Assembly: GCA_902779945.1 (NCBI GenBank)
Contig: CACZDN010000001.1
Location: forward strand, 1 to 64,000
Length of the DNA: 64,000 bases
Direction of reading: 5' to 3'
Source of the DNA: Oscillospiraceae bacterium
GTDB taxonomy: Bacteria > Bacillota > Clostridia > Oscillospirales > Oscillospiraceae
A model generated the notes under the pieces. The model was not told where the DNA came from and ran no database searches. It saw only the letters and a list, made by a program, of their open reading frames with translations. Positions 1,475 through 59,522 of the stretch are shown in pieces; positions within the stretch are counted from its first letter, which is position 1; the number at the start of each line of letters is the position of its first letter. The translations under genes were made by a program, and so were the position numbers.

Positions 1475-1641
1475 GGCGTGTCACCTCCGTTTTCCGCACG
1501 CGGCCGCCTGAAAGCCGCGGCACGCCTGCGATCTCCGGGATCGCGCACAGCCGCGGTACAGGTCTTCCGCGCACAAAACCCCCCATGCCCGAAGCGATTT
1601 CAAAACCGGGCGCGCACAGAACGCATGGGGAATTTACTGTG
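1475..1641 (-). promoter_or_regulatory. Long structured leader of the 1474 gene
   Basis: About 165 nt separate the promoter from the start codon. The leader contains paired segments: CCCCATGC near its 5' end can pair with GCATGGGG about 50 nt later around an inner CGCGCCCG/CGGGC pairing, and there are further GC-rich stems. No known riboswitch core was recognised. The start-proximal end carries the ribosome site. Confidence 0.35.
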
Positions 1642-46721: not shown

Positions 46722-46860
46722 AGGCAATACCGCACAATCCGCCTGCGGCATCTCCTGAAAAATTTGCGCCCTGATTTCGTCACTTTTTCTTGAGGTACAC
46801 AAAGTACATCTGCGAAAAAGTGCCTTTATCAGAACCCAAATTTTCTCAGGATCTGCTCTT
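46722..46860 (+). repeat. MITE-like repeat lacking its right terminus
   Basis: It has the intact left end AGGCAATACCGCACAAT and the centre, but stops at GGATCTGCTCTT, about 24 bp before the expected right terminal repeat. The stop codon of the neighbouring minus-strand gene starts exactly there. Confidence 0.85.
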
Positions 46861-48068
46861 CAGCTCTTCATTCCCTGCACTCCGCACATGCGCAGCGGTT
46901 CACGGGAGAGCAGCTCGCACGGAATCTCCGCCATACGCAGCTCATCGAGAAAACATTCAAAGAATTTCACGGATGAAAACGGCTGCATGAACGCAAGAAA
47001 GAAGCTGTGATTGATGCATGTCAGCTCACATAATACATCTGTTATGGGCTTCAAAGTAGTTACGACATACATTTCTCTGATATAGGCGTCCAATGGTCCG
47101 AAACTTGCGTTTTTCGGATAAGAAACGCAGAAACTTGCCTGCGGAATATCAAGAGACAGAATCGGCAGCATTCGTTTTCTCTCTTTGATCTCCCAGAGAG
47201 AATTCTCCGGCTGAGCCTGCAGGATCAGCTGTCCGCGGGCCACAGTGCAAGTCTTCGTGATGTCATTTAAATCCATGTCCTTCGGAAATACCAATACATT
47301 GTTGCCGGCAAATAAGCGGTAGTTGTCATGGTTTCCGAGGATTGCCTTATGATCGACGGCTACGAAAACGGTGACCGGCTTTTCGCTGCTCGGATCATAG
47401 CGTCTTGCCGCTTTCGCCAAGAATACGGAGAACAGCACGTTTGGGCTGGCGTCCTTATCCCTGCAATACGTCATGACCCGCTCTTCAGGGAGCTTCAGAT
47501 AAAAAACGGTTTTGTCAATTTCCATTCCGTTGACCAGATGAAAACAATCGGGAACAGGTTTTTGCCTGTAGAACGGGGCCTCCACAGCTTGAAAATCCAC
47601 ATCTGCAAACGGATCTCCGATTTCAGATTCCGGAATCTCCTCACCGGGCAGACGGAATCCGGTTGGATCAAATGTCCTGCCCGTTCGTTTTGACAGGTAT
47701 AAAAACATCGCGCTTTTAATGTAGGGAAAGAGGCCTGCTCCGTCTGTCAGCTCGTGGGGGAGCTCAAAAGCCAGCCTGTGACCCTCATATTTCCAGGCGG
47801 CAAGATGGTAGTTGGATTCTTCGGAATTCAGACTGACAGGTTCCCAGGTGTTCCGAACTGTCATCGGGAGGTCGTTCGGCACGGTGATCAGGTCGCTTCC
47901 ATTATAGGAGGCCTTGACGTAAAAGTACGGGAAGCGAACTCGCAGTTCCTCGATCACAGACCGCAGAATTTCACCATCCACCGGGTCATGCAAGGATACG
48001 ATAATGCCCATGATATTCTGCTGCTCGGGCGATGATAAATTCAGACGTGGTTCGTAGTATTTCAGCAT
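46860..48068 (-). CDS. Condensation-fold acyltransferase (CAT/WES-like)
   Basis: The 402-residue protein resembles the chloramphenicol-acetyltransferase/condensation superfamily (also alcohol acetyltransferases and wax-ester synthases). The hallmark HxxxDG is present as HELTDG (His105). A DFGWG-like second motif is not evident. In its place are GNNVLVFP and a C-terminal FFECFLDEL helix. It has no carrier-protein domain, so it may be a stand-alone acyl/alcohol acyltransferase. The ATG at 48068 lies 10 bp after AGGAGGG, and the in-frame ATG at 48092 overlaps that site. Its 3' end is formed at the boundary of a truncated MITE. The substrate is unknown. Confidence 0.75.
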   Translation of the reverse strand: MLKYYEPRLNLSSPEQQNIMGIIVSLHDPVDGEILRSVIEELRVRFPYFYVKASYNGSDLITVPNDLPMTVRNTWEPVSLNSEESNYHLAAWKYEGHRLAFELPHELTDGAGLFPYIKSAMFLYLSKRTGRTFDPTGFRLPGEEIPESEIGDPFADVDFQAVEAPFYRQKPVPDCFHLVNGMEIDKTVFYLKLPEERVMTYCRDKDASPNVLFSVFLAKAARRYDPSSEKPVTVFVAVDHKAILGNHDNYRLFAGNNVLVFPKDMDLNDITKTCTVARGQLILQAQPENSLWEIKERKRMLPILSLDIPQASFCVSYPKNASFGPLDAYIREMYVVTTLKPITDVLCELTCINHSFFLAFMQPFSSVKFFECFLDELRMAEIPCELLSREPLRMCGVQGMKS

Positions 48069-48118
48069 GGATGATTTCTCCCTCCTGATCATGTTTACAA
48101 TCCCGATTTGTCAAAGTG

Positions 48119-48272: not shown

Positions 48273-48434
48273 GGGCAACACCGCGCAATTCGCCTGCGGC
48301 ATCTCCTGGAAAATTTGTGCCCTGATTTCGTCACTTTTTCTCGAGGTACACAAAGTACATCTTCGAAAAAGTGCCTTTATCAGAACCCAAGTTTTCTCAG
48401 GATCTGCTCTTGCCGAATTGTGCGGTGTTGCCTT
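48273..48434 (+). repeat. MITE-like repeat, full-length copy
   Basis: It runs from GGGCAACACCGCGCAATTCG to GAATTGTGCGGTGTTGCCTT, so both terminal inverted repeats are present. It sits directly upstream of the first ACAAAYGT-type promoter. TTA occurs on both sides, a possible short target duplication. Confidence 0.9.
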
Positions 48435-48464
48435 AGCTTCTCAGATCCTTCCCTCTGGTCGGCG

Positions 48465-48552
48465 TAAACAAATGTCCTCCTTTTGTTCAGGCAAAGTTGA
48501 AAGCCCTTGACCGAGGAGCACGAAATAATATATTATCAGCGTAAACAAACGT
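48465..48552 (+). promoter_or_regulatory. ACAAAYGT promoter cassette A
   Basis: The upstream operator TAAACAAATGTCC..TTTTGTTCAGG (48465-48491) is an inverted pair. A TTGACC -35 (48507-48512) and an AT-rich -10 around 48530-48536 follow. A second operator half, TAAACAAACGT (48542-48552), overlaps the transcription start. The two sites are 77 bp apart. The cassette drives the 48575 operon. Confidence 0.75.
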
Positions 48553-48574
48553 CAAACCGGAAGGGGCAATTTAT

Positions 48575-49681
48575 TTGAAAACCAAAACGAAGTTCTCGGC
48601 GCCGACGCTTGGAAAACGGATACTATACCTTGTTATAGCCGTTTTTTTAGCATTATTGATTGTCTTTGGATCTGTATACATCTACTATAGTACCGGGATA
48701 GATGCGGAGGATCCAAAGGGCTTTTATTCTATACGAGGGCTGAACAATGCTGAAGATATGGTTCAAATAGGAGACACAAAGTGGATCCTGACAGGAAATC
48801 TGGGGGATAAAAGCTGGAAAAACGGTGGGCTGTATTTTGTCGATTCCGATTCTCTGGAATGGAAGAAAGCAGATATTGATTTCTCAGGCCCTGCTGCCGC
48901 AGGATATGATGAGATTCGCGATCCTGAACTTTTCTCCTCACACGGGATTGCATTAAAGCCAGTTGGAGAGAACAAATTCGAGGTATATGCGGTAAATCAT
49001 GGCGGAAGAGAATCCGTTGAGATATTTGATCTGACCATAAAAGACGGGGAGCCCGTAATCGCGTGGAAAGGCTCTGTTCCCACTCCTGATGGGATGACCG
49101 GAAATTCCGTTGCGCCGCTTTCAGATGGTTTCCTCGTAACAATACCGATGATGGAGAATAATCTTGGTACTTTTTTAGGTTTCCTGGCAGGTAAGCCCAC
49201 CGGAACTGTTTATAAGTGGACAGCGCAGGAGGGGTTCCGCGAAATATCGGGAGCAGCGCTTGCAGGCAACAACGGAGTTGCGGTATCGCCCGATGAAAAA
49301 TGGGCATTTATTAACGGTTACTCCAGCCGCTCCGTTACAAGGATCAGCCTGGAGGACGATCAGGCTGATCCAGTTACAGTTTCGTTATCCTTCCTTCCGG
49401 ACAATATCAGGTACAGTGCTGACGGCAGTCTTTTAGTGACCGGGCAGGATACCAACATTCTTACGGTGGTTCTTCTTACCAACGGAACCAATATTGGCGT
49501 TTCCTCATCCGATACGGCAGTGATCAAGCTTGATCCCGAGACCATGGAGGTAACAGAAATACTAAACCTCCCAAAATTCAGAGCATTCGGAGGTGGAACA
49601 ACCGCAATCTATGTTGGAAATGACCTCTGGATATCCTCATTCAGAGCTCAAAGGATTATGATCCTTCCTGCTGCTAAATAA
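48575..49681 (+). CDS. Membrane-anchored SMP-30/lactonase-like beta-propeller
   Basis: The 368-residue protein has one N-terminal membrane helix (about 17-40) and an extracellular six-bladed propeller. NNAEDMVQIGDTKWI, the HGIALKP motif, GRESVEIFDL, GNNGVAVSPDEKWAFINGY and WISSFRAQRI recall paraoxonase/arylesterase and SMP-30 family hydrolases of lactones and esters. The calcium-site His and Asn positions look kept, but enzyme activity is not proven. Translation begins at TTG 9 bp after GGAAGGGG. It leads operon A, with a SnoaL-like protein and a MATE exporter. Confidence 0.78.
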   Translation: MKTKTKFSAPTLGKRILYLVIAVFLALLIVFGSVYIYYSTGIDAEDPKGFYSIRGLNNAEDMVQIGDTKWILTGNLGDKSWKNGGLYFVDSDSLEWKKADIDFSGPAAAGYDEIRDPELFSSHGIALKPVGENKFEVYAVNHGGRESVEIFDLTIKDGEPVIAWKGSVPTPDGMTGNSVAPLSDGFLVTIPMMENNLGTFLGFLAGKPTGTVYKWTAQEGFREISGAALAGNNGVAVSPDEKWAFINGYSSRSVTRISLEDDQADPVTVSLSFLPDNIRYSADGSLLVTGQDTNILTVVLLTNGTNIGVSSSDTAVIKLDPETMEVTEILNLPKFRAFGGGTTAIYVGNDLWISSFRAQRIMILPAAK

Positions 49682-49720
49682 GCGTATAAATTCTAATCAA
49701 AATGAAAAGGAGCGATAATA

Positions 49721-50221
49721 ATGGAAAAGCTTACACCCGAAAAAGCAAAGTGGCTTGCAGAAAGATATTATAAAGGGATGGAAAAAAGAGATCCCTCTAT
49801 GGCGAAGATATTTTACACCGAGGATTTTGTCTTACAGGATGACGGCGCGGTGGATCTGGTCAAGGGAATCAAAGAAGCGGAGGCTTTTCTGCAAAATATG
49901 TATAATACCTGGCCGGATCTCAAATTTGATCTGCTGAAGGAGCCCTGCATCGGAATTGACGGCGTGACAGTTGCCTTTCTTGTCAGGGCAACCTCGTCAA
50001 GAGAAAGCAGGAGGAAATTCACCGGCCCCACAGCGCAGTGGGAGTTCGCAAGCTTTTATACGGTAGATCTCGAACAGGAAAAGTTCTGTGCCGGAAGATG
50101 CTGCTTCAATATGCTCGATGTTTATGAAATGCTTCTGCCAATCCCAAAACGCGGTGGCAAGTTCTTTAGAAAGCTGGAGAAGATGTTCACCGGGAGGCTG
50201 GCGAAGAAAGGAAAAGAATAA
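49721..50221 (+). CDS. SnoaL/NTF2-like protein
   Basis: The 166-residue protein has the cone-shaped NTF2-like fold signature. An N-terminal helix leads into RYYKGMEKRDPSMAKIFYTEDFVLQDDGAVDLVKGIKEAEAFL. A beta-sheet part with FDLLKEPCIGIDGVTVAFLVRATS follows. Such proteins bind small hydrophobic ligands or act as polyketide cyclases/isomerases. An unusual basic C-terminal tail of about 30 residues is present. AAAAGGAGCG precedes the ATG. It lies between the beta-propeller and the MATE gene. Confidence 0.72.
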   Translation: MEKLTPEKAKWLAERYYKGMEKRDPSMAKIFYTEDFVLQDDGAVDLVKGIKEAEAFLQNMYNTWPDLKFDLLKEPCIGIDGVTVAFLVRATSSRESRRKFTGPTAQWEFASFYTVDLEQEKFCAGRCCFNMLDVYEMLLPIPKRGGKFFRKLEKMFTGRLAKKGKE

Positions 50222-50271
50222 GCGCACAGATCAGAAACCACCTGCACCGGCCATAGTAAAAGGAAGAACCA

Positions 50272-51660
50272 ATGAAGCAAACAACTGCCGAAGAAAACGA
50301 TATCAATAAGGAATTATCGAACGGGAATATATCATCTCTGCTGAGAAAAATGGCCATACCGGGTGTCGTTTCCCAGATCCTGCTGCTGCTTTACAACATG
50401 GTAGATCGCATCTATCTTGGCCGCCTCCATGACGGTGGAACAGCTCTTCTTGCTGTCGGACTGTGTCTTCCGGTCTCTTACATCTTCAACGCATTTGCGT
50501 TCCTGTTTGGGCAGGGTGGAGCTGCAAGAGCTATGATCAAACTTGGAGGCGGCCAACGTGATGAGGCTGAAAACATTATGGTCAACAGTGTTGTTTCCAT
50601 TATTGTCAGCGGGGGCATTTTGACCGTCGTACTGTATATCTTTGCAGAGCCAATCATGTTTTTCCTCGGAGCGAGTACCAGCTCGATAGATGCCGCTGTA
50701 ACCTATATGCGTATCTATACTCTGGGCGCTGTTGCGATCATGGGCTATATGGGCTTCTTGCAGTTTGTAATTTCGCAGGGCGCGACCAGACAGGCAATGA
50801 TTCTTGTCGTGCTCGGAGCATTGATGAACGTTGTTCTGGATCCGATCCTGATCTTCGGATTTCATATGGGTGTCGCGGGAGCTGCAATCGCAACCGTATT
50901 ATCGCAGCTTCTGATCGCCGTGCTTTGCTTAAACTTTCTGACAGGACCGAAGAGCAGCCTCACGCTCAGATTACGAGGCATGAATCCGAAAACAAACGTG
51001 ATCGCGACCATTGTCACTCTGGGCTTTTCACCGTTCCTCATGCAGATAACGGAGTCGGCCCTTAATATTGCGGTGGACGCGTCGGCCCAGAGATATGGAG
51101 GGGATATCAGCGCACTCGGAATCACGCTTGCGGTCAGCCTGTCCATGGTGATCTGGATGCCGAGCAGCGGCATCAATCAGGGAGCGCAAGCCCTTTTAAG
51201 CTACAACTACGGCAGCAAAGACTATGACAGAGTCATGGAAACTGCAAAAACACTGCTGAGATTCCAGTTCCTGTTTTTCTGGCCGATGACTGCGCTGCTG
51301 GAGCTGTTTCCTGAAGTGTTTATCCGTATTTTTACCTCTGACCCGGCCGTTATCAAAGAAGCAACATGGATGGCCAGACTTTATGCCGCAGGATTCTTTG
51401 TGATCCCGATACAGGCGGTATTCCAGCAGATCAATCTTTCTACTGGGCAGGAAAAAGCATGCCTGTTTATGGTGATCATACGAAAACTGATCTTACACAT
51501 TCCACTGCTTTTCATTCTGCCGATAGTCATGAAGAACAAGGTGTTTGCGGTGGTTCTTTCCGCGCCGATTTCGGATGTGTTGTCTGTTGTTGTAACTTTC
51601 TTGGTTTTTGTGCCAGGCTTCTACAACAAAATGAAAAGGCTGAAGCTTTCCGAGGATTGA
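50272..51660 (+). CDS. MATE-family multidrug/lipid exporter
   Basis: It is a 462-residue polytopic protein with 12 hydrophobic segments in two pseudo-symmetric halves. MATE signatures are LLYNMVDRIYLGRLHDGG near helix 1, PVSYIFNAFAFLFGQGGAARAMIKLG and YNYGSKDYDRVMETAK. MATE proteins export drugs or metabolites in exchange for Na+ or H+. The position in a lipid-gene regulon suggests that the cargo may be amphipathic. AGGAAG precedes the ATG. Confidence 0.9.
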   Translation: MKQTTAEENDINKELSNGNISSLLRKMAIPGVVSQILLLLYNMVDRIYLGRLHDGGTALLAVGLCLPVSYIFNAFAFLFGQGGAARAMIKLGGGQRDEAENIMVNSVVSIIVSGGILTVVLYIFAEPIMFFLGASTSSIDAAVTYMRIYTLGAVAIMGYMGFLQFVISQGATRQAMILVVLGALMNVVLDPILIFGFHMGVAGAAIATVLSQLLIAVLCLNFLTGPKSSLTLRLRGMNPKTNVIATIVTLGFSPFLMQITESALNIAVDASAQRYGGDISALGITLAVSLSMVIWMPSSGINQGAQALLSYNYGSKDYDRVMETAKTLLRFQFLFFWPMTALLELFPEVFIRIFTSDPAVIKEATWMARLYAAGFFVIPIQAVFQQINLSTGQEKACLFMVIIRKLILHIPLLFILPIVMKNKVFAVVLSAPISDVLSVVVTFLVFVPGFYNKMKRLKLSED

Positions 51661-51739
51661 GGGAAAAGCGTTTAATACTCAGCTGATGGCTGCGATCACG
51701 GCGATCATCATGCTTGGGAATGCAGGGAGGAAGGATCAG

Positions 51740-51883
51740 ATGGCGAAAGAAAGAGCGGCAGAGCTGATAAGAATCCTCACGATACCGCCGTTAATGGTAG
51801 CGGTTCTGCTGCTTATTCTCTATCACAATAAAGCCTCTGGCTTTTGCTCCATTCTCATACCAGTACGTTTTTTCTCAGCCTAA
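51740..51883 (+). pseudogene. Truncated membrane-protein gene start (possibly PAP2-like)
   Basis: After an excellent GGAGGAAGG site, an ATG opens a frame for MAKERAAELIRILTIPPLMVAVLLLILY, a convincing start of a polytopic protein similar to some membrane phosphatases. The frame then ends after only 47 codons. Its stop codon lies in the upstream operator of promoter cassette B. It looks like a gene whose remainder was lost when the cassette came to lie here. The family assignment is weak. Confidence 0.45.
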
Positions 51884-51969
51884 ACAAATGTCCAAACTCT
51901 GTTCAGGCAAAGCCCAGAAGCCTTGACACATCAAGGTTTTTCCTTTAAAGCTTTGGTGTAAACAAATGT
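51879..51969 (+). promoter_or_regulatory. ACAAAYGT promoter cassette B
   Basis: The operator CCTAAACAAATGTCC..CTCTGTTCAGG (51879-51907) is an imperfect inverted repeat. TTGACA (51923-51928), 17 bp and TAAAGC or an overlapping TTTAAA form the promoter. The second half-site TAAACAAATGT is at 51959-51969, 78 bp after the first. AGGCAAAGCCCAGAAGCCTT is identical to cassette C. Confidence 0.82.
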
Positions 51970-52029
51970 AAATGCCATCGGCGTGTAAGCGGTATAGCGA
52001 TAAGCGATTTTATCATGGAGGGTAAACGA

Positions 52030-52581
52030 ATGAAAAAGCATGCGGCTAATATGATCACCTCAGTCCGCATTCTCTTGTCTCCGGCGTTATTCCTTTTCAG
52101 AGGTCTCACCAGCTCGTTTTTTGTGATCTATCTGATTTGTGCAGCCAGCGATCTGTTCGACGGACCAGTTGCCAGAATGACGAAAAGCACCGGGTTGACA
52201 GGCTCTATACTCGATTCGATCGGAGACACACTCATGTATACGGGTATGATGAAGGTGGCACTCACCGCATATGGGATCCCGGACTGGGCGCTCATATCGC
52301 TTGTCGCCGCATTGGCGCTACACGTCATCTCCGCACTGATCGCGGCTCACAAATTCGGAACGTTTTATTTCACTCATACCGTTGCCGGCAAGATCATGGG
52401 AGGCGCGTTTTTCCTCACTCCGTTCGCGTTGTGCTTTGGACTACGTTCATTGCATATGTTTGTGATCTGCCTAATAGCAACATATTCTGCTGTTGAGGCG
52501 ATCATCATACAGGCCAACATGAAATATGCAGATTCCGATGTGCGATCCGTCAGTGAACTTCGGCAGTTCCAACAGGACTAA
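52030..52581 (+). CDS. CDP-alcohol phosphatidyltransferase
   Basis: It is a 183-residue membrane enzyme that joins a CDP-diacylglycerol-type donor to an alcohol. Phosphatidylglycerophosphate, phosphatidylinositol and cardiolipin syntheses use this family. The full motif D-x2-DG-x2-AR-x8-G-x3-D-x3-D is present at residues 41-66 (SDLFDGPVARMTKSTG onward). About six hydrophobic segments follow. The ATG at 52030 follows GGAGGG. It is the first gene behind promoter cassette B and ahead of a small alarmone synthetase. The alcohol cannot be told from the motif. Confidence 0.9.
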   Translation: MKKHAANMITSVRILLSPALFLFRGLTSSFFVIYLICAASDLFDGPVARMTKSTGLTGSILDSIGDTLMYTGMMKVALTAYGIPDWALISLVAALALHVISALIAAHKFGTFYFTHTVAGKIMGGAFFLTPFALCFGLRSLHMFVICLIATYSAVEAIIIQANMKYADSDVRSVSELRQFQQD

Positions 52582-52614
52582 TAGCAGAAAGGGCGGATAA
52601 AGGCGAGGAAGCAC

Positions 52615-52650
52615 ATGAACACCAATTTAAAGGAGCAACTGCAAGGATGA
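52615..52650 (+). CDS. 11-codon ORF coupled to the alarmone synthetase
   Basis: An ATG 5 bp after GAGGAAG opens MNTNLKEQLQG, and the TGA at 52648-52650 overlaps the synthetase start (ATGA). The synthetase lacks a well-spaced ribosome site of its own, since AAGGAG is 12 bp away inside this ORF. The mini-ORF may therefore feed ribosomes into it. Confidence 0.4.
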   Translation: MNTNLKEQLQG

Positions 52651-53327
52651 GTATTATTCAAAATATAGAGGTAGATGATCGTCAGGCGGAAGAAATACTG
52701 GATTACATGAATCAGAATTCCGCACCCGTATGGGAGTTTCTGTCAAGATACAAATGCGCGATCATGGAGATCGAAACGAAGTTCAAGGTATTGAATGAGC
52801 GCTTTTCTATTCAATACGATGAAAACCCGATCGAGTCCATAAAGGTGCGGATCAAGTCGCTTGACAGCATTGCAAGGAAAATGATCCGCAGAAAAATTGC
52901 CCCCTCGTTTGCCGCTATTGAACAGAATATACGAGATATAGCAGGTGTACGAGTGATTTGTTCTTTTGAAAGTGACGTTTACCGGATGGCCGATCACTTT
53001 TTAATGCAGGATGATATAAAGCTCCTGGAGAAAAAGGACTATATAGCAAATCCAAAGGAAAACGGCTACAGAAGCCTGCACCTCATTGTAGCCGTCCCGA
53101 TTTTTACGGAAAAAGGCAAGATTGATGTGCCCGTAGAAGTGCAGATGCGCACGATAGCCATGGACTTCTGGGCAAGCTTGGAACACAAGATTCGATATAA
53201 GAAAAACATACCAGAAGAACTGCGGAATGAGCTTTCCGAATGCTTGGCCGACTGCGCGAAGAGAAGCCATCAGCTCGACATTGAATTCCAGGGGATTTCG
53301 GAAAAAGCAAGAAATGCCATGTACTGA
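52647..53327 (+). CDS. Small alarmone synthetase (RelA/SpoT domain)
   Basis: The 226-residue protein consists of a single RelA/SpoT synthetase domain. It would make (p)ppGpp from ATP and GTP/GDP like RelQ/YjbM or RelP/YwaC, without hydrolase or TGS domains. Core motifs are RIKSLDSIARKMIRR (ATP-binding basic part), IRDIAGVRVICSFESDVYRMA, KENGYRSLHLIVAVPIF (GTP site Tyr) and PVEVQMRTIAMDFWASLEHKIRYK. An arginine-rich C-terminal helix closes it. It shares promoter cassette B with a phospholipid synthesis gene. Confidence 0.92.
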   Translation: MSIIQNIEVDDRQAEEILDYMNQNSAPVWEFLSRYKCAIMEIETKFKVLNERFSIQYDENPIESIKVRIKSLDSIARKMIRRKIAPSFAAIEQNIRDIAGVRVICSFESDVYRMADHFLMQDDIKLLEKKDYIANPKENGYRSLHLIVAVPIFTEKGKIDVPVEVQMRTIAMDFWASLEHKIRYKKNIPEELRNELSECLADCAKRSHQLDIEFQGISEKARNAMY

Positions 53328-53361
53328 TTTGAAGATATATAAAAGCAAATATGACGCAAGA

Positions 53362-53404
53362 AACGATCAAAACCGGCCGCTTGTGCCGGTTTTGATCGTT
53401 TTAC
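53362..53404. terminator. Bidirectional terminator
   Basis: A 16-bp perfect stem, AACGATCAAAACCGGC and its complement with a 7-nt loop, lies between the alarmone synthetase and the convergent TetR gene. T-runs exist on both strands (GTTTT and its mirror). Confidence 0.85.
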
Positions 53405-53976
53405 TATATCATCTTCATTCCCTGCTCAAGGGAGGCCGCGGCCTGAACATCAAGGAGCGGATGGGTGATTTCCGTCAGGCGTTCAGCCAGCTCTTCGGGA
53501 TCATCCGCAAAATCCCGGTTCGCCCACCACAGAATGCAATTGAAAATCACACCGTTCCATGCCGCAAGGCGGAGCTTGAATTCTTCACTCACATAGTCGG
53601 CACTGCGATTGATCTGTTTGAGGATTTCCATTCCCATTCCTGCTTTCAGAAGGAGCGGGATTTTTTCTCTGTGCCGATAAACGGTATTCAAGATGATCTG
53701 CCAGTTCTTGCCGATGTCCGAGCCGCTGGCCTCCCGCACATCATCCGCAATGACGCGGATATCATCCTTCAGCACATCCGTGACCAGATAAAAGTTCCGG
53801 TAAAAACCGCCCCGGGAGACGCCCGCCGCCTTGCACAGGTCTACCACCTTGATGCTGTCTATATCCTGCGTCTTGAGCATGGTATACAGCGCCTCCTGCA
53901 GGGAGTCCACGATCAGGCGATGGGATTCCTCATTTGATCGCTGAAGGTTTTCGATCCGCTTTTCTCTGATTGACAT
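53404..53976 (-). CDS. TetR-family regulator, proposed controller of the ACAAAYGT regulon
   Basis: It is a 190-residue TetR-type protein. The helix-turn-helix is SLQEALYTMLKTQDIDSIKVVDLCKAAGVSRGGFYRNFYLVTDVL. The C-terminal domain has the TetR_C-type layout seen in the DhaS/AcrR-like subgroup of Gram-positives, with tryptophan-rich GVIFNCILWWANRDF. The ATG at 53976 is 10 bp after AAGGAGG. An in-frame TTG at 53982 is less likely. Its own promoter carries two copies of the ACAAAYGT motif, one over the -35 region and one over the ribosome site. The same motif precedes three nearby operons. Confidence 0.88.
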   Translation of the reverse strand: MSIREKRIENLQRSNEESHRLIVDSLQEALYTMLKTQDIDSIKVVDLCKAAGVSRGGFYRNFYLVTDVLKDDIRVIADDVREASGSDIGKNWQIILNTVYRHREKIPLLLKAGMGMEILKQINRSADYVSEEFKLRLAAWNGVIFNCILWWANRDFADDPEELAERLTEITHPLLDVQAAASLEQGMKMI

Positions 53977-54069
53977 AGACAAACGTCCTCCTTATGTACG
54001 CCCATTGACAAATTTACGGGCTTCATTATAGCTTTTGCATAGACAAATGTCAATTCTAAAATTTGTATT
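53976..54069 (-). promoter_or_regulatory. TetR gene promoter with ACAAAYGT operators (cassette D)
   Basis: The minus strand reads TTGACA (54048-54053), 17 bp, TATAAT (54025-54030). One operator, AGACAAATGTC..ATTTGTATT (54040-54069), overlaps the -35 and spacer. A second half-site, AGACAAACGTCC, covers the start codon and ribosome site (53976-53988). Autorepression is likely. Confidence 0.82.
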
Positions 54070-54106
54070 TTGAGCCTGTGTCATGCTTGAAGACATTGGC
54101 TCCGAC

Positions 54107-54195
54107 TGAACAAATGTACGCATTCTGTCAAGGCAAAGCCCAGAAGCCTTGACACGACAAGGTTTTTTCTATATAGTTTTGGCATAAACAAATGT
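54107..54195 (+). promoter_or_regulatory. ACAAAYGT promoter cassette C
   Basis: The operator TGAACAAATGT..TTCTGTCAAGG (54107-54133) lies upstream. TTGACA (54149-54154), 17 bp, TATAGT (54172-54177) is the promoter. The second site TAAACAAATGT (54185-54195) is 78 bp from the first. It drives the 54217 operon. Confidence 0.85.
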
Positions 54196-54216
54196 AAAGT
54201 CAAAGGAGCGAAGAAC

Positions 54217-55506
54217 ATGAAAAGCATCTCTTTTTTCCACGTATGGAAGATTGTGCTGCTGGCAGCCTCGCTGCTCTTTGCGGTCCTGGCGTCCTTTCTG
54301 CCATACTCGATCGAACTTCTGCTTTGCCTTTCAACAGTGTTCCTTGCGGGAGCTGTCGTGCTGGAGACGCAGAGCAAGAAAGAACGCCGCGGCTGGCTTC
54401 CCACTATTATCTGGACTGCGGTCGGACTGTCTGTGCTTCTCACACTGATCATGCTTTTGGGCCACAAGCTCCGGCTGTATGTCTGGATCGAAGCGCTGAA
54501 TCTGCTGAACATTGCCGCGCTGCTGGCTGCCGAGCTGCTCAAAAAGAAAAAGAAGCAAGCTGCCTCACAAATCCTGCTGGTTCTCTGCGCAGCGTTTACA
54601 TTGTTTGGCGCATTCTCGCATATCGCGTACGGACGGTCTGTGATGTCCACGATTGCGGAGTGGATCCTCGCCTCCAACAAGGTACACGACGAGGAAGTCC
54701 CCGCGGTCTTCCAGACGCTGACGAAGGCCGGGGAAATGCATTTCAAAGCAAACCCTGCGGCCTTTGATAAGCTCATGAAAGAAGCAGACTTTGACGGAAT
54801 GCCTGTCTTGTATGTCAACGACAACGAGAAAACCGAGCATATCGTCTTCTACATTCACGGCGGGTATTACGTGTATCAGATGGGCAGTGAGCAGATGAGC
54901 ACAATGAATCGCCTGGCAAATACCACAAATTCCACGATCGTCATGCCGATCTACCCGCTGGCTCCCTTCCACACCACCGAGGAGAATTACGAAACCATGG
55001 TGGCACTTTATGAAAAGGTAAGCAGCGAAAACGCAGGCAAAAAGATCATCCTGATGGGGGATTCCGCCGGCGGCGGGTATGCGCTGGCTTTGGCGGAAGG
55101 CTTGAACGTCCGCGGTATTGAGCAACCGGACGAGCTGATCCTGCTCTCTCCCTGGGTGGATGTAACGATGAGCAACCCGGATATTCGGAACTTTGTCGAT
55201 GTCGAACCCATGCTTACGGTCACTATGGGGCGCACGAGCGGCGAAGCCTGGGCGGGAAGCCTTCCCATGGACAACTGGCAGGTTTCCCCGCTCTATGGCG
55301 ATCTGTCGGATTTGAAGAATGTCACGATTTTTGTCGGCACGCGGGAACTGTTCTACCCGGACGATACGCTCCTGGCCGAAAAGCTCAGTGCCAACCCGAA
55401 TGCCACCCTGGTGATCGGAAAAGGGCAGAACCATGTTTATCCTGTCTATCCGACCCTGGAGGGGCGGATTGCTGTTGAACAGATTATGGAGATCGTACAG
55501 CGCTGA
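54217..55506 (+). CDS. Membrane-anchored alpha/beta hydrolase (HSL/esterase type)
   Basis: In this 429-residue protein residues 1-150 form four or five membrane helices. The rest is a hormone-sensitive-lipase-like alpha/beta hydrolase. The oxyanion-hole motif is HGGYYV (His214). The nucleophile is Ser283 in GDSAGGGYALAL, with a late acid in GTRELFYPDD and catalytic His in GKGQNHVYPV. Such enzymes cleave lipid or other acyl esters. The catalytic domain probably faces outward or lies at the membrane surface. AAAGGAGCG precedes the ATG. It is first in operon C, followed by cardiolipin synthase. Confidence 0.88.
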   Translation: MKSISFFHVWKIVLLAASLLFAVLASFLPYSIELLLCLSTVFLAGAVVLETQSKKERRGWLPTIIWTAVGLSVLLTLIMLLGHKLRLYVWIEALNLLNIAALLAAELLKKKKKQAASQILLVLCAAFTLFGAFSHIAYGRSVMSTIAEWILASNKVHDEEVPAVFQTLTKAGEMHFKANPAAFDKLMKEADFDGMPVLYVNDNEKTEHIVFYIHGGYYVYQMGSEQMSTMNRLANTTNSTIVMPIYPLAPFHTTEENYETMVALYEKVSSENAGKKIILMGDSAGGGYALALAEGLNVRGIEQPDELILLSPWVDVTMSNPDIRNFVDVEPMLTVTMGRTSGEAWAGSLPMDNWQVSPLYGDLSDLKNVTIFVGTRELFYPDDTLLAEKLSANPNATLVIGKGQNHVYPVYPTLEGRIAVEQIMEIVQR

Positions 55507-55516
55507 GGTGAGATTG

Positions 55517-57082
55517 TTGGAAAACGAGAATGCTGTGCTTCGGCTGGCCAAGCCGAAAAAAGGGCTGCTGAGCCTTGTATTCAGCCGGATGCCTCTGATC
55601 GTGCTGCTCCTTGCCGCGCAGATCCTGTTGTATGTTGTGGTGCTGGACTGGATGAAGCAAACGCTTCGCTATTACACGGTGCTGCAGATGCTGTTCATTA
55701 TCGGCATGGTGATCTATCTGTTCAACAATCGCATGGACACCTCGGCCAAGCTCACATGGCTGGCTCTGATTGCGGTCGCCCCGCTGCTCGGCGGGATCCT
55801 GCTGGCTTTTACGCAGTCCAATCTCGGCCACCGCGCGTCACGCAGGCGCACGGCGGAGCTGATCGAGCAGTCGAGGGATTTGGTGTCTCAGAATGAAGCC
55901 GTGCTGGAGCAATTGCAAGGCGACCCCTGCGGAGTGGACGACCTCCAGCGCTATCTGAGCCGCAGTGGAGATTTCCCGATCTTCGATCATACTGAGGTCA
56001 GCTACTTCCCCAGCGGGGAGGCCAAGTTTGCCGCTATGCTGGAGGAGCTGGAAAAGGCGGAGAAGTTTATCTTCCTGGAATACTTCATCATTGAGGAAGG
56101 CACAATGTGGGGGCACATCCTGGATGTGCTGGCGCGTAAAGCCAAAGCAGGTGTGGACGTGCGTGTGATGTATGACGGCATGTGCGAGATCACGACTCTG
56201 CCCCATGACTATCCCAGCCGTTTGGAAAAGCTCGGTATCAAAGCGAAGACCTTTGCGCCCATCATGCCCTTCCTGTCCTCGCATTATAACTACCGCGACC
56301 ACCGGAAGATCCTCGTGATTGACGGAAAGGTTGCTTTCAATGGCGGGGTCAATCTGGCGGACGAGTATATCAACCAAAAAGAGCGATTCGGCCATTGGAA
56401 GGATACCGCGCTCATGCTTAAAGGAGAGGCTGCGCGCAGCTTTACGCTGATGTTTCTGCAGATGTGGAATCTGACCGAGCCGCAAGCGAGCTTTCCTCCT
56501 GAACTGCTGTCCCCGATCGAAGGGCCGGAGGCTCCCGGCTTTGTCATGCCCTACGGTGACTGCCCGCTGGACGAAGATAAGGTAGGGGAGGCAATCTATA
56601 CAGATATGCTGTACCGGGCAAGCGACTATGTCCATATCATGACGCCGTACCTGATCTTGGACGGAGAACTGACAGCGGCACTGAAATTTGCCGCGCAGCG
56701 CGGGGTGGACGTCAAGCTGATTCTGCCGGGCATCCCGGACAAGAAGCTGGCCCATGCCCTGGCCAAGTCCCATTACCGGGAATTGACCGATGCCGGTGTG
56801 CAGATCTTTGAGTATACGCCCGGCTTTGTCCACGCAAAGGTCTGTGTCAGCGATGACAACCACGCGGTGGTGGGCACCATCAACCTGGACTACCGCAGTC
56901 TTTACCACCACTTTGAATGTGCCACATATCTTTACCGGACATCATGCATCTTGGAGATTGAGGGAGACTTTCAACAGACGCTGCGGCAGTGCCGCGCCGT
57001 CACCCCGGAGACGATCCGAAACGAAAAGCTCGGTTATAAAATCATCGGCCCACTGCTGAAGATCATTGCCCCGCTCATGTAA
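55517..57082 (+). CDS. cls: Cardiolipin synthase
   Basis: The ~521-residue phospholipase-D-superfamily enzyme condenses two phosphatidylglycerols to cardiolipin. Two or three N-terminal membrane helices are followed by two HKD motifs. These are HRKILVID (His262, Lys264, Asp269) and HAKVCVSD (His439, Lys441, Asp446), each followed by the usual GG-N / G-N-D-type residues. I place the start at TTG 55517, 5 bp after GAGGTGA. An adjacent TTG and an upstream GTG at 55508 are also in frame. It lies 10 bp after the hydrolase stop. Confidence 0.92.
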   Translation: MENENAVLRLAKPKKGLLSLVFSRMPLIVLLLAAQILLYVVVLDWMKQTLRYYTVLQMLFIIGMVIYLFNNRMDTSAKLTWLALIAVAPLLGGILLAFTQSNLGHRASRRRTAELIEQSRDLVSQNEAVLEQLQGDPCGVDDLQRYLSRSGDFPIFDHTEVSYFPSGEAKFAAMLEELEKAEKFIFLEYFIIEEGTMWGHILDVLARKAKAGVDVRVMYDGMCEITTLPHDYPSRLEKLGIKAKTFAPIMPFLSSHYNYRDHRKILVIDGKVAFNGGVNLADEYINQKERFGHWKDTALMLKGEAARSFTLMFLQMWNLTEPQASFPPELLSPIEGPEAPGFVMPYGDCPLDEDKVGEAIYTDMLYRASDYVHIMTPYLILDGELTAALKFAAQRGVDVKLILPGIPDKKLAHALAKSHYRELTDAGVQIFEYTPGFVHAKVCVSDDNHAVVGTINLDYRSLYHHFECATYLYRTSCILEIEGDFQQTLRQCRAVTPETIRNEKLGYKIIGPLLKIIAPLM

Positions 57083-57113
57083 GAAAATAAAAAGTTAAAG
57101 GAGAAAATGAAAA

Positions 57114-57671
57114 ATGATAGCAACCATCATGTTTATCAGGAAACACTGGGCGGCACTGATGACGATTCTGGCAAGCGTCATCGTCGGAATCCTGCTGCTG
57201 ACAAATCCCGCAAAATATGCCATTGCGATCATCAAAATCGCGGGCATCGTCCTGATTGCACTGGCAGTGCACGACTTTCTCCGGTATTTCCGCGCAAAGC
57301 CGGAGGAGGCAGCCAAAGGCTCGGCCTTTTACTCCGGGATGCTTGAGACAAGCGTTGGCCTTTTCTGTATCTTCGGCTCAGACTGGTTCCTGGGCGCTTT
57401 CCCGATACTGGCAGTCCTCTACGGCCTGTTTCAGGTGCTGATCGGCTTCCGGAAGCTGCAGCGGATGGTGGACGCGCTGCGCATGAAGCAGAATGTCTGG
57501 GTTATGAAAGCAATCAGCGCGGGTATCACGCTGATCTTCGGCTTCGTGATCGTCTTTAATCCGAATATGACGATGATGAGCGTATGGGTGTTTACGGGCT
57601 TGACCATGCTTTTGGAGGGAATCTTTGATGCTGTGGCCCTCTTCTTGCAAGAGCGCCGCGGAGAATCCTGA
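57114..57671 (+). CDS. HdeD/DUF308-family membrane protein
   Basis: The 185-residue protein has six hydrophobic segments in the pattern of DUF308/HdeD proteins, with pairs of helices such as WAALMTILASVIVGILLLTNP and ETSVGLFCIFGSDWFLGAFPIL. In Escherichia coli HdeD is linked to acid stress. In Gram-positives the role is unknown. AAAGGAGAAAATG precedes the ATG at 57114. It is the third gene of operon C. Confidence 0.82.
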   Translation: MIATIMFIRKHWAALMTILASVIVGILLLTNPAKYAIAIIKIAGIVLIALAVHDFLRYFRAKPEEAAKGSAFYSGMLETSVGLFCIFGSDWFLGAFPILAVLYGLFQVLIGFRKLQRMVDALRMKQNVWVMKAISAGITLIFGFVIVFNPNMTMMSVWVFTGLTMLLEGIFDAVALFLQERRGES

Positions 57672-57685
57672 CGCGGAGAAATGAC

Positions 57686-58234
57686 ATGTATTCCGACCTT
57701 TATCCGGAAATGAAGCCTGTGGCTTTCCCGCCGTCATGGGATCATTCACCTCTGGCCGAGGCCAAGCGAAAACTTGATCTCGATCCCGAAGCGCCGCATC
57801 TGGTGGTGTTGGCATCCGATATCCCAGGAGACTTTCTTACGGATCTGCTGTCCATGGTCTATGTCGGAGATGAAAAGGATTCTGAGATCAGCGTTCTGTG
57901 TGTAAACAACGGTTCATTATTTAAAAAGCTTGAGGCTGAACTCGGCCACCTGGAGACAATTCATCTGTATGATGCAGACAGCGACGGGAGCAAACTGATG
58001 GACAGTGCGGATCTGCTTTTGACCGAAGAGCATGATTCCGTGCTCGGGGAGGCACTGAAGCGGCAGCTTCCCCTTGTCTTGATCGGAACGGTGCAGAAAA
58101 ATGCCTGGTCAGAGCTTGTAAACCAGGGGTGTGCTGTTGCATCCCAGGACAATGTGGAGCTGGCGGAGTACTGTATTAAGCTTCTGGACGACGAAGCTCT
58201 GCGCGCCAAAATGTCCGGCGCCTATTGGCGGTAA
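57686..58234 (+). CDS. Orphan C-terminal domain of a glycolipid glycosyltransferase
   Basis: This 182-residue protein corresponds in layout to the nucleotide-sugar-binding C-terminal half of MGDG synthase/UgtP-type (GT28) enzymes. It starts with the interdomain PPSWDHSPLAEAKRKLDLDPEAPHLVVLAS stretch. MDSADLLLTEEHDSVLGEALKRQLPLVLIG, at the usual donor-site position, and NAWSELVNQGCAVAS follow. The acceptor-binding N-terminal half is absent. A fitting ribosome site (GCGGAGAAA) precedes the ATG, so it is expressed as is, either as a remnant or as a stand-alone domain. The glycine-rich MGGS loop is replaced by LASDIPGDF, so activity is doubtful. Confidence 0.6.
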   Translation: MYSDLYPEMKPVAFPPSWDHSPLAEAKRKLDLDPEAPHLVVLASDIPGDFLTDLLSMVYVGDEKDSEISVLCVNNGSLFKKLEAELGHLETIHLYDADSDGSKLMDSADLLLTEEHDSVLGEALKRQLPLVLIGTVQKNAWSELVNQGCAVASQDNVELAEYCIKLLDDEALRAKMSGAYWR

Positions 58235-58397
58235 CTGCGTAAAATCTGGTATCTTGAAAGCCGGGATGACATGACAACAGGAGGAATGCAAAAATGAGAA
58301 TGGGTTCTGGCGGATGAAGACACGGAATCAGGAAAAACTGTTTCATGAAGGCGATATTCATGCTCCTTCACAGAAGCCGCAGATAGGAGACTCATCC

Positions 58398-59522
58398 ATG
58401 CCAAAAAAATCAAGTCGGATTTTCGGATATATATCTTTCGGTGTCGTTCTGTATGCGGCATTAAATCATCTTGAATATGTGATTATGGTTGGACGCAATG
58501 CGGTTGGGTTGATTTCGCCGCTGATTACCGGACTGGTCCTCGCATTTGTACTCCATGTCCCGGTCAATCTCTTGACATCGCGCCTGGAAAGCTTATTCAA
58601 GAAAGCAAAAAGAAAGCCGTCGCACAAGACAATTGAAGGCTTCAGCCTGCTTCTGACGTTTATCCTCATCGCGCTGATTGTCACCCTTGCAATCACAATT
58701 ACAATCCCCAATCTTCTACGCTCCTTCCGCAGTATTTATGATGAGCTTACCGTTCGTCTGCCGCAGTGGATTTCCGAACTGGAGAGAACCGAATGGTACG
58801 GCTACCTGGGACTCAACGGAAGGCTGGAAAAGCTGGATATTCCCAAACTGTTGGAGCCGCTTCAGGGGCTCAGCGTTTTGAGCTTTGCGCTGGATTTCTC
58901 TTCATCTGTTTTTTCCGGGATCATTCTGGCCAGCATTGAAATCGTCATGGCTATCTATCTAATTCTTTCCAGAAAAGAGCTCTGCCACAGCGCCAAAAGA
59001 GCGGCTTACGCGATTCTCCCGGAGTCGGGTGCAAAATGGTTGTGCCATTTTGCAGGCCTGGTCGATGAATGCTTCAGCAAGTTTTTTACCGGTCAGCTTT
59101 TGGAATCCTGCATTCTCGGACTGCTTATATTTGCATCACTGTCGATCTTTGCAATCCCCTATGCGGGAGTCACGGCGATCCTGACTGCGATATGCGCATT
59201 TGTTCCTTATGTCGGGGCGTATCTATCCTGCGGTATCGGCGCGATTTTGACTCTTTTGGTAAGCCCAGGAAAGGTATTTACCTGCATTATTGTGTATACC
59301 ATTACCCAATTTATAGAAAACCAGTTTATTTATCCGCATGTTGTGGGCAATTCCGTCGGCTTGCCTCCGATCCTCACACTCGCGGCGGTCGTAATCGGCG
59401 ACCGAATTTCCGGCTTGCTCGGCATGATCTTTGCCATCCCCATGATGGCCGTAGTCTACACACTTGCCGGTGAAGGCATACAGAAAGCGCTGCATGATCG
59501 CAAAATTGAGGGCTTGGAATAG
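58398..59522 (+). CDS. AI-2E-family membrane permease
   Basis: This 374-residue protein of the AI-2E/UPF0118 (YtvI/YhhT/TqsA) family has seven or eight hydrophobic segments. Typical parts are LISPLITGLVLAFVLHVP and FVPYVGAYLSCGIGAIL, then YTITQFIENQFIYPHVVGNSVGLPPILTL. Members export autoinducer-2 or act as Na+/H+ antiporters. The ATG at 58398 follows AGGAGA. An ATG at 58314 lacks a ribosome site. A vestigial 8-codon ORF with a good ribosome site sits at about 58294. It is the last gene of operon C. Confidence 0.88.
   Translation: MPKKSSRIFGYISFGVVLYAALNHLEYVIMVGRNAVGLISPLITGLVLAFVLHVPVNLLTSRLESLFKKAKRKPSHKTIEGFSLLLTFILIALIVTLAITITIPNLLRSFRSIYDELTVRLPQWISELERTEWYGYLGLNGRLEKLDIPKLLEPLQGLSVLSFALDFSSSVFSGIILASIEIVMAIYLILSRKELCHSAKRAAYAILPESGAKWLCHFAGLVDECFSKFFTGQLLESCILGLLIFASLSIFAIPYAGVTAILTAICAFVPYVGAYLSCGIGAILTLLVSPGKVFTCIIVYTITQFIENQFIYPHVVGNSVGLPPILTLAAVVIGDRISGLLGMIFAIPMMAVVYTLAGEGIQKALHDRKIEGLE

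Follow-up and report, generated by a model that had tools for sequence, protein, structure and literature searches.

A local TetR regulon in an Oscillospiraceae genome, probably assembled from copies of the two-way control region of tetR itself

In the general plan of TetR regulation, tetR lies divergent from its target and the control region between the two genes is autoregulated; new members of a regulon are usually thought to arise through small mutations that create a binding site. The closest described design that we found is that of RcoLS20 from plasmid pLS20, which, in the available parts of its description, is a helix-turn-helix protein that forms tetramers and whose operators, holding repeats of CAGTGAAA, lie 75 bp apart around overlapping divergent promoters; the loop formed there is experimentally supported: inserting 5 bp impairs it, and a bent spacer favours it (PMC4207663). 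Regulon growth has been followed by comparative genomics for LacI-family regulons (PMC4052901) and in Proteobacteria (PMC5343134), as far as the accessible parts of these sources go. Here we describe a tetR locus at positions 48465-54195 of a 64,000-nucleotide stretch of an Oscillospiraceae bacterium (assembly GCA_902779945.1, contig CACZDN010000001.1, positions 1 to 64,000; this whole stretch is called the window), where the tetR upstream region and the promoters of three forward operons carry related cassettes with two operator-like sites, O1 and O2. We put the probability at roughly four in five that these units form a local regulon of TetR, every promoter of which would derive by copying from the two-way control region of tetR. 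The features on which the argument turns are the following:

53404..53976, minus strand, tetR, encoding a TetR-family regulator of 190 amino acids (aa), ATG at 53976
53987-53993, minus strand, Shine-Dalgarno sequence of tetR, adjoining C0-O1
54025..54053, minus strand, tetR promoter, TTGACA-17-TATAAT, 12/12 consensus positions
53976-54054, cassette C0, the tetR upstream region, O1-O2 spacing 64 bp
53976..53989, C0-O1, operator-like site flanked by the Shine-Dalgarno sequence and ATG of tetR, touching both
54040..54053, C0-O2, operator-like TAGACAAATGTCAA, overlapping the tetR -35 element, with 13/14 aligned positions identical in the orthologous locus L020
48465..48555, plus strand, cassette C1, O1 at 48465, arm 48484-48496, -35 at 48507-48512, -10 at 48531-48536, O2 at 48542, before the SnoaL/MATE operon
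51881..51972, plus strand, cassette C2, O1 at 51881, arm 51900-51912, -35 at 51923-51928, O2 at 51959, before the CDP-alcohol phosphatidyltransferase/RelA-SpoT-like pair
54107..54198, plus strand, cassette C3, O1 at 54107, arm 54126-54138, -35 at 54149-54154, -10 at 54172-54177, O2 at 54185, before the hydrolase/cls operon

A preliminary description of this DNA had proposed a common plan for the three forward promoters, and this plan was borne out: an inverted arm (TGTTCAGGCAAAG / TGTCAAGGCAAAG) and a TTGAC -35 element are present in C1, C2 and C3 alike, O1 lies 31 bp before the forward -35, and the two sites are 77, 78 and 78 bp apart. A pattern search located TRAACAAAYGT at 48465, 48542, 51881, 51959, 54107 and 54185, in agreement with the earlier positions apart from the start of C2 (previously 51879), and the ACAAAYGT motif reported twice for the promoter of tetR itself was seen at 53976 and 54040 as TAGACAAAYGT (one mismatch). 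Nine window matches with at most one mismatch to TRAACAAAYGT compare with 1.57 expected, a count reached in 0/100 shuffles; eight are the cassette sites and the ninth (50989) lies within the MATE gene. Genome-wide (2.87 Mb, 85.8% complete), a motif search gave ten exact matches to TRRACAAAYGT, eight of them inside these 5.7 kb. The backwards control was nearly as frequent, with eight matches genome-wide; the signal is therefore the clustering in 5.7 kb and not the total count, and we rejected the motif count alone as evidence. The two-site pattern ACAAAYGT-N60-80-ACAAAYGT was matched three times among 102 genus genomes, always in the source genome and in none of the other 101, and its backwards control ten times, never in the source genome. 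Two single exact sites without a cassette were rejected as regulon members, one inside a gene at L010 that we take to be mraZ-like, the other at L009 upstream of what is presumably a methionine sulfoxide reductase-like gene; the L009 site (1501-1511, minus strand) is a lone TGAACAAACGT about 30 bp upstream of the likely ATG.

Orthologues of tetR are present in L020, L021, L022 and G473 (84%, 69%, 65% and 63% identity). In G473, one cassette (Ca) lies exactly between the divergent tetR and cardiolipin synthase (cls) genes and a second (Cb) before the hydrolase gene, and in L021 the cassette separates tetR from a DUF308/hydrolase/SnoaL operon. One collinear alignment joins C1-C3, the tetR upstream region and the upstream regions of the tetR orthologues. 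Profile searches of the window and the four orthologous loci, with each cassette left out of its own profile, refound 8/8 cassettes: four in the window (C1, E = 2.2e-14; C2, 1.4e-15; C3, 1.4e-17; C0, 1e-8), one each in L020 (1.8e-12) and L021 (1e-4), and two in G473 (Ca, 7.3e-19; Cb, 1.4e-13). The set described earlier as triplicated thus comprises four copies, the tetR upstream region being recognized although it was left out. A remnant in L022 scored between 3e-6 and 4e-5 in seven of the leave-one-out runs and was not among the best matches with L021 left out; this remnant aside, the best E-values were at least 0.55 at other places and at least 0.073 in reversed-sequence controls, and in the run without C0 these figures were 0.68 for the best non-cassette site and 4.8 for the best reversed-sequence match. 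The full profile, in which the copies are included, found four cassettes in the genome, and the next match had E = 0.167 (150 of 236 candidates scored). In pairwise alignment most cassette pairs beat all 200 shuffles (Cb versus C0 did not), the local alignment of C2 with C3 reached z = 37, and a tree of the cassettes grouped C2 with C3 (bootstrap 98) and C0 with L020 (78). Chance clustering of an A-rich motif, or convergent origin of the operators instead of copying, might be read from the backwards control (8 versus 10 genome-wide), but the leave-one-out E-values, the collinear order of the elements and the C2/C3 score make it extremely improbable, and the E-values refute it for C0-C3 as a group.

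What the cassette represents is explained by the orthologues: judged by sequence, it is the divergent intergenic region between tetR and a target. A divergent pair with a shared operator region is seen in G473 (tetR/cls), in L021 (tetR/DUF308 operon) and in the window (tetR/hydrolase, with C0 and C3 in tandem). The tetR-direction promoter, TTGACA-17-TATAAT, matches the consensus at 12/12 positions in C0, Ca and L021 and at 11/12 in L020, with O2 overlapping its -35; from the target side, O2 follows directly after the -10 of the target promoter, and in the window O1 falls between the Shine-Dalgarno sequence and ATG of tetR. In L022 only the side of the cassette nearest tetR remains (model positions 2-57, E = 1.7e-4); at L022 7147-7287 it runs into the apparent 3' end of a SnoaL gene, O2 and the promoters being lost. 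O2, a predicted operator, resembles a palindrome of 14 bp, in which between 3 and 5 of the 7 pairs are complementary across the eight cassettes. O1 and the arm together make a 25-bp inverted repeat, TNAACAAA-N9-TTTGTTNA, in C1 and Ca that is weaker elsewhere; the ACA...TGT pair is fully complementary (3/3 positions) in seven of the eight cassettes. C3 additionally holds a perfect inverted repeat, TGTCAAGGC-N11-GCCTTGACA, across arm and -35 (54126-54154), which has a shorter version in the G473 cassettes and is absent from L020 and L021.

The copies that stand apart from tetR retain traces of it, most clearly C1:

48527..48555, minus strand, relic tetR promoter in C1, TTGACG-17-TATATT, 10/12
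48437..48465, minus strand, relic in C1 of the first tetR codons, with ACG in place of the start codon, reaching as far as an inserted repeat element

Promoter matches in the tetR direction, at a spacing of 17 bp, amount to 10, 9 and 9 of 12 in C1, C2 and C3, scores of 10 and 9 being reached at 0.011% and 0.036% of window positions. C1 also retains the tetR ribosome-binding sequence (AAAAGGAGGACATTTGTTTACG, where tetR has AAGGAGGACGTTTGTCTATG), and from the relic start onward it is identical to the start of the L021 tetR at 14/18 positions, a score that 2 of 127964 window positions reach (C1 itself scanned). For the 31 nucleotides of C1 beside O1, likeness to tetR coding DNA had a chance of 33/20000 with L021, 90/20000 with G473, 103/20000 with the window's own tetR and 602/20000 with L020; the corresponding flanks of C2 and C3 resemble each other (25/20000). 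These relics of ribosome-binding site, start codon and promoter suggest that the region upstream of tetR was copied as a ready-made promoter with both operators. Conservation among C1-C3 is selective, although the block limits were set after the alignment was seen: three-way identity is 10/11 in O1, 11/13 in the arm, 7/7 in the -35 and 11/14 in O2, and falls to 2/8 in the old ribosome-binding gap, 2/8 in the stretch before the -35, 1/17 in the promoter spacer, 3/7 in the -10 and 2/6 after it. Since tetR is not present at these places, and O1, arm, -35 and O2 were kept while the DNA between them diverged, O1 probably works without tetR, and in these copies the likely role of O1 and the arm is at the forward promoter.

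How O1 would do so is a choice between a loop and a local role. Start to start, O1 and O2 are 78 bp apart in six of the eight cassettes, 77 bp in C1 and 64 bp in C0, and a conserved short spacing of two operator-like sites around opposed, overlapping divergent promoters is thus present. Its constancy, despite near-total spacer divergence of C1 from C2 and C3, would be accounted for if TetR, as a tetramer or as a pair of dimers, bridged O1 and O2 and looped the DNA over the promoter, much as the preliminary description proposed, and the spacing were kept for that; it is not explained if O1 acts alone. The accessible text on RcoLS20 describes such looping across a spacer of 75 bp where divergent promoters overlap (PMC4207663), and taking the 25-bp O1 as the site gives a centre distance of 72.5 bp, or 6.9 turns. 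For the 14-bp sites, however, 78 bp amounts to 7.43 turns at 10.5 bp per turn (7.09 at 11), which puts them on roughly opposite faces, a phase that does not suit the simplest loop; in C0, the cassette of tetR itself, the distance is 64 bp, and the overlap of the two promoters could in part dictate the spacing. We consider looping unlikely and rejected it as a settled matter, because the phase does not support it. The local alternative, on which we would give even odds, is that O1 binds TetR without a loop, acting as a roadblock and covering the translation start of tetR, and in the copies blocking RNA polymerase contacts or raising the local TetR concentration; it agrees with the place of O1 at the tetR start in C0 and 31 bp before the -35 in C1-C3, and with the conservation of O1 and arm where tetR is absent. 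A local role of O1 is therefore more likely than a loop.

Several findings weigh against a local TetR regulon built by copying, besides the late choice of block limits. The -10 of C2 is weak, the forward promoter of L020 is poor (7/12), and O1 of L020, L021 and Ca lacks the inner TGT and is weak there as a 14-bp site. Cb has no anchored tetR-direction promoter, carries O2 in the opposite orientation, and yielded no start-codon relics. Beside O1, the C2 flank resembles tetR coding DNA of G473 only (72/20000) and the C3 flank that of none of the four sources, and downstream of O2 an unexpected likeness links C1 and C3 (16/30, 13/20000, among 66 comparisons). The L021 cassette did not exceed the best shuffle in pairwise alignment with C2, C3 and Cb (z 3.0, 3.9 and 2.8), and the deep nodes of the cassette tree are poorly supported (27-45), leaving the order and direction of copying uncertain. 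Finally, G192 has one partial cassette match (53 positions, E = 6.4e-4) without a TetR match at 1e-20.

Cassette and regulator otherwise occur together. Among 400 family genomes sampled, TetR at E <= 1e-70 was found only in the source genome (G000) and G473, and full cassettes only in the same two (strict filters, 10 candidates scored per genome shown), a coincidence with a chance of 1.3e-5 if both searches drew the same sample. The profile did not find the cassette in G021, G017 and G204, whose TetR proteins are 32-41% identical. Among 394 sampled genomes of the order, TetR at 1e-30 occurred only in the source genome; 1/18 genomes of G473's genus has it (G473 itself), and 2/14 genomes of G493's genus have the cassette (G493 and a remnant in G494). 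This sporadic distribution of TetR fits horizontal movement; spread of tetR on known plasmids or phages was rejected, the best rows having 26.6% and 24.9% identity. The repeated block might instead be kept for promoter strength or for another regulator, with TetR not binding it, as arm and -35 show the same degree of conservation as the operators, but full cassettes were found only alongside a close TetR, and O2 overlies the tetR -35 in all four tetR-linked cassettes that retain O2 (C0, Ca, L020 and L021), so that we regard this as improbable. The preliminary description had held that this one TetR binds and governs all units. Its control of all four is well supported by comparison, full cassettes being restricted to genomes with a close TetR orthologue, the sites being conserved and the target families recurring; binding itself stays a prediction.

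The TetR-family assignment rests on the TetR_N domain in the aligned family, on PDB profile matches and on a predicted fold with moderate TM (template modelling) scores. TetR_N matched the window protein weakly (E = 0.0016, below the gathering score) and 7/7 aligned family members at E <= 0.1 (best 1.3e-7); against the family library nothing passed 0.001 for the window protein except DUF6262, likewise below its cut-off. PDB profile matches were mostly named TetR-type regulators (best 3kkc, 1.3e-8). The AlphaFold model (pLDDT, predicted local distance difference test, 85.4) is all helices and gave 12 Foldseek matches at E <= 0.001, the best being the TetR repressor AlkX (5ydp, E = 8.7e-5, TM 0.52/0.53); the highest TM among the 50 matches listed was 0.67/0.70 for 3o60 (Lin0861, family not named there, E = 4.6e-3). 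Naming an inducer from structure was rejected, as the neighbours are varied regulators at TM about 0.5, which is too weak. No close paralogue was found in the genome, the other three matches at E <= 0.01 being 29-38% identical over partial length.

Three target operons are predicted from strand and spacing:

48575..51660, plus strand, operon 1, a 368-aa protein without family match, a SnoaL-like protein and a MATE transporter
52030..53327, plus strand, operon 2, a CDP-alcohol phosphatidyltransferase (start set by the L022 homologue; open reading frame listed from 52015) and a small RelA/SpoT-type (YjbM-like) protein
54217..59522, plus strand, operon 3, an alpha/beta hydrolase with a hydrophobic N-terminus, a cardiolipin synthase, a DUF308/HdeD-like protein and two further open reading frames

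The target families recur beside tetR orthologues in varying order: the hydrolase is 63% identical to the homologue beside tetR in L021 and 60% to that in G473, the cardiolipin synthase 77% over 193 aa to the G473 copy, the DUF308 protein 61% to L021 and 64% over 104 aa to G473, the SnoaL-like protein 91% to the one beside the L021 orthologue, the CDP-alcohol phosphatidyltransferase 53% to the L022 gene that neighbours tetR, and a MATE fragment in G473 71% over 62 aa. None of these families was found beside the L020 tetR. This recurrence supports a common role of the targets in membrane lipids, envelope or efflux. Between the source genome and that of L021 the SnoaL-like proteins (window 49721-50221, L021 1239-1736) are 91% identical, compared with 69% for TetR, which suggests recent transfer of parts of the module. 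In G473 (L028 10547-12437), cls, with a product of 364 aa, seems to lack an internal part, and pieces of DUF308 and MATE genes come after it, which gives the impression of an operon in decay. Immediately upstream of C1, an inverted-repeat element of ~160 bp (48274-48432) with ends GGCAACACCGC... is flanked by TTAG on either side; it occurs at at least 40 places genome-wide at 89-100% identity, its own copy included (40 of 273 candidates scored), the window holds nine sequences like its ends, and it looks like a miniature mobile element. It was rejected as carrier of the cassette, since beyond the four cassettes the profile's next match was the one at E = 0.167. Divergent from C1, the gene at 46860-48092 (minus strand), at which the relic reverse promoter points, encodes a 410-aa protein without a Pfam or NCBIfam match, whose HELTDG motif is like that of condensation/alcohol acyltransferases; it may be a further regulon member.

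How the cassettes are built, that the copies are homologous, that relics persist, that conservation is selective and that cassette and TetR co-occur can all be read directly from the DNA; the history that we propose from them is as follows. In the ancestral form, tetR and one target would have been divergent, with a target promoter (TTGACC-17-TATA) and the tetR promoter (TTGACA-17-TATAAT) overlapping in opposite directions, a palindrome-like O2 (about TNGACAAATGTCNA) covering the target's start and the tetR -35, and O1 sitting between the tetR Shine-Dalgarno sequence and ATG. This ~92-bp region, accompanied at least once by a few tetR codons, would have been copied in front of other operons, where the tetR gene is gone and its promoter decayed while O1, the inverted arm, the -35 and O2 were retained. 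A TetR dimer would bind O2 and O1 and repress all four units in the absence of ligand, an envelope-active or hydrophobic compound being the presumed inducer, and the presence of an operator at both the -35 and the translation start of tetR points to repression of tetR by its own product. We lean slightly towards the broader view that a small envelope/detoxification regulon grows and rearranges in more than one genus by copying this unit before new operons and shedding its tetR half, so that an upstream operator once over the tetR start now serves the forward promoter. Such copying would be a traceable mechanism for fast regulon growth: one repressor could switch four gene groups, which suggests copy-and-paste growth of bacterial gene networks, and the eight natural cassettes offer a means to probe what an upstream TetR operator does once its cover of the tetR start is gone.

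A literature search on the duplication or copying of a regulator's control region, on looping by TetR and on this set of genes gave no comparable case at the level of titles and abstracts, which is weak evidence because most subscription journals lay outside the search. The parts, a repressor and repressor-controlled promoters, are ordinary, and what appears new is the copy-and-paste origin with readable relics. As in the general TetR plan, tetR is divergent from a target and shares an intergenic operator with it (C0, Ca and L021), whereas separate copies lacking tetR stand here before other operons; their tetR promoters have decayed, and C1 retains start-codon relics. As far as the available parts of PMC4207663 describe it, RcoLS20 shares the overlapping divergent promoters and two operators at a similar distance (75 bp, here 78), one of them over the promoters, but is a tetramer-forming protein for which looping was tested, and those parts mention no copied cassette. 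Like the regulons followed by comparative genomics (PMC4052901 and PMC5343134, in their accessible parts), the regulon of this one regulator varies between lineages; here, the regulator's whole bidirectional control region seems to have been copied, as seen from the relics.

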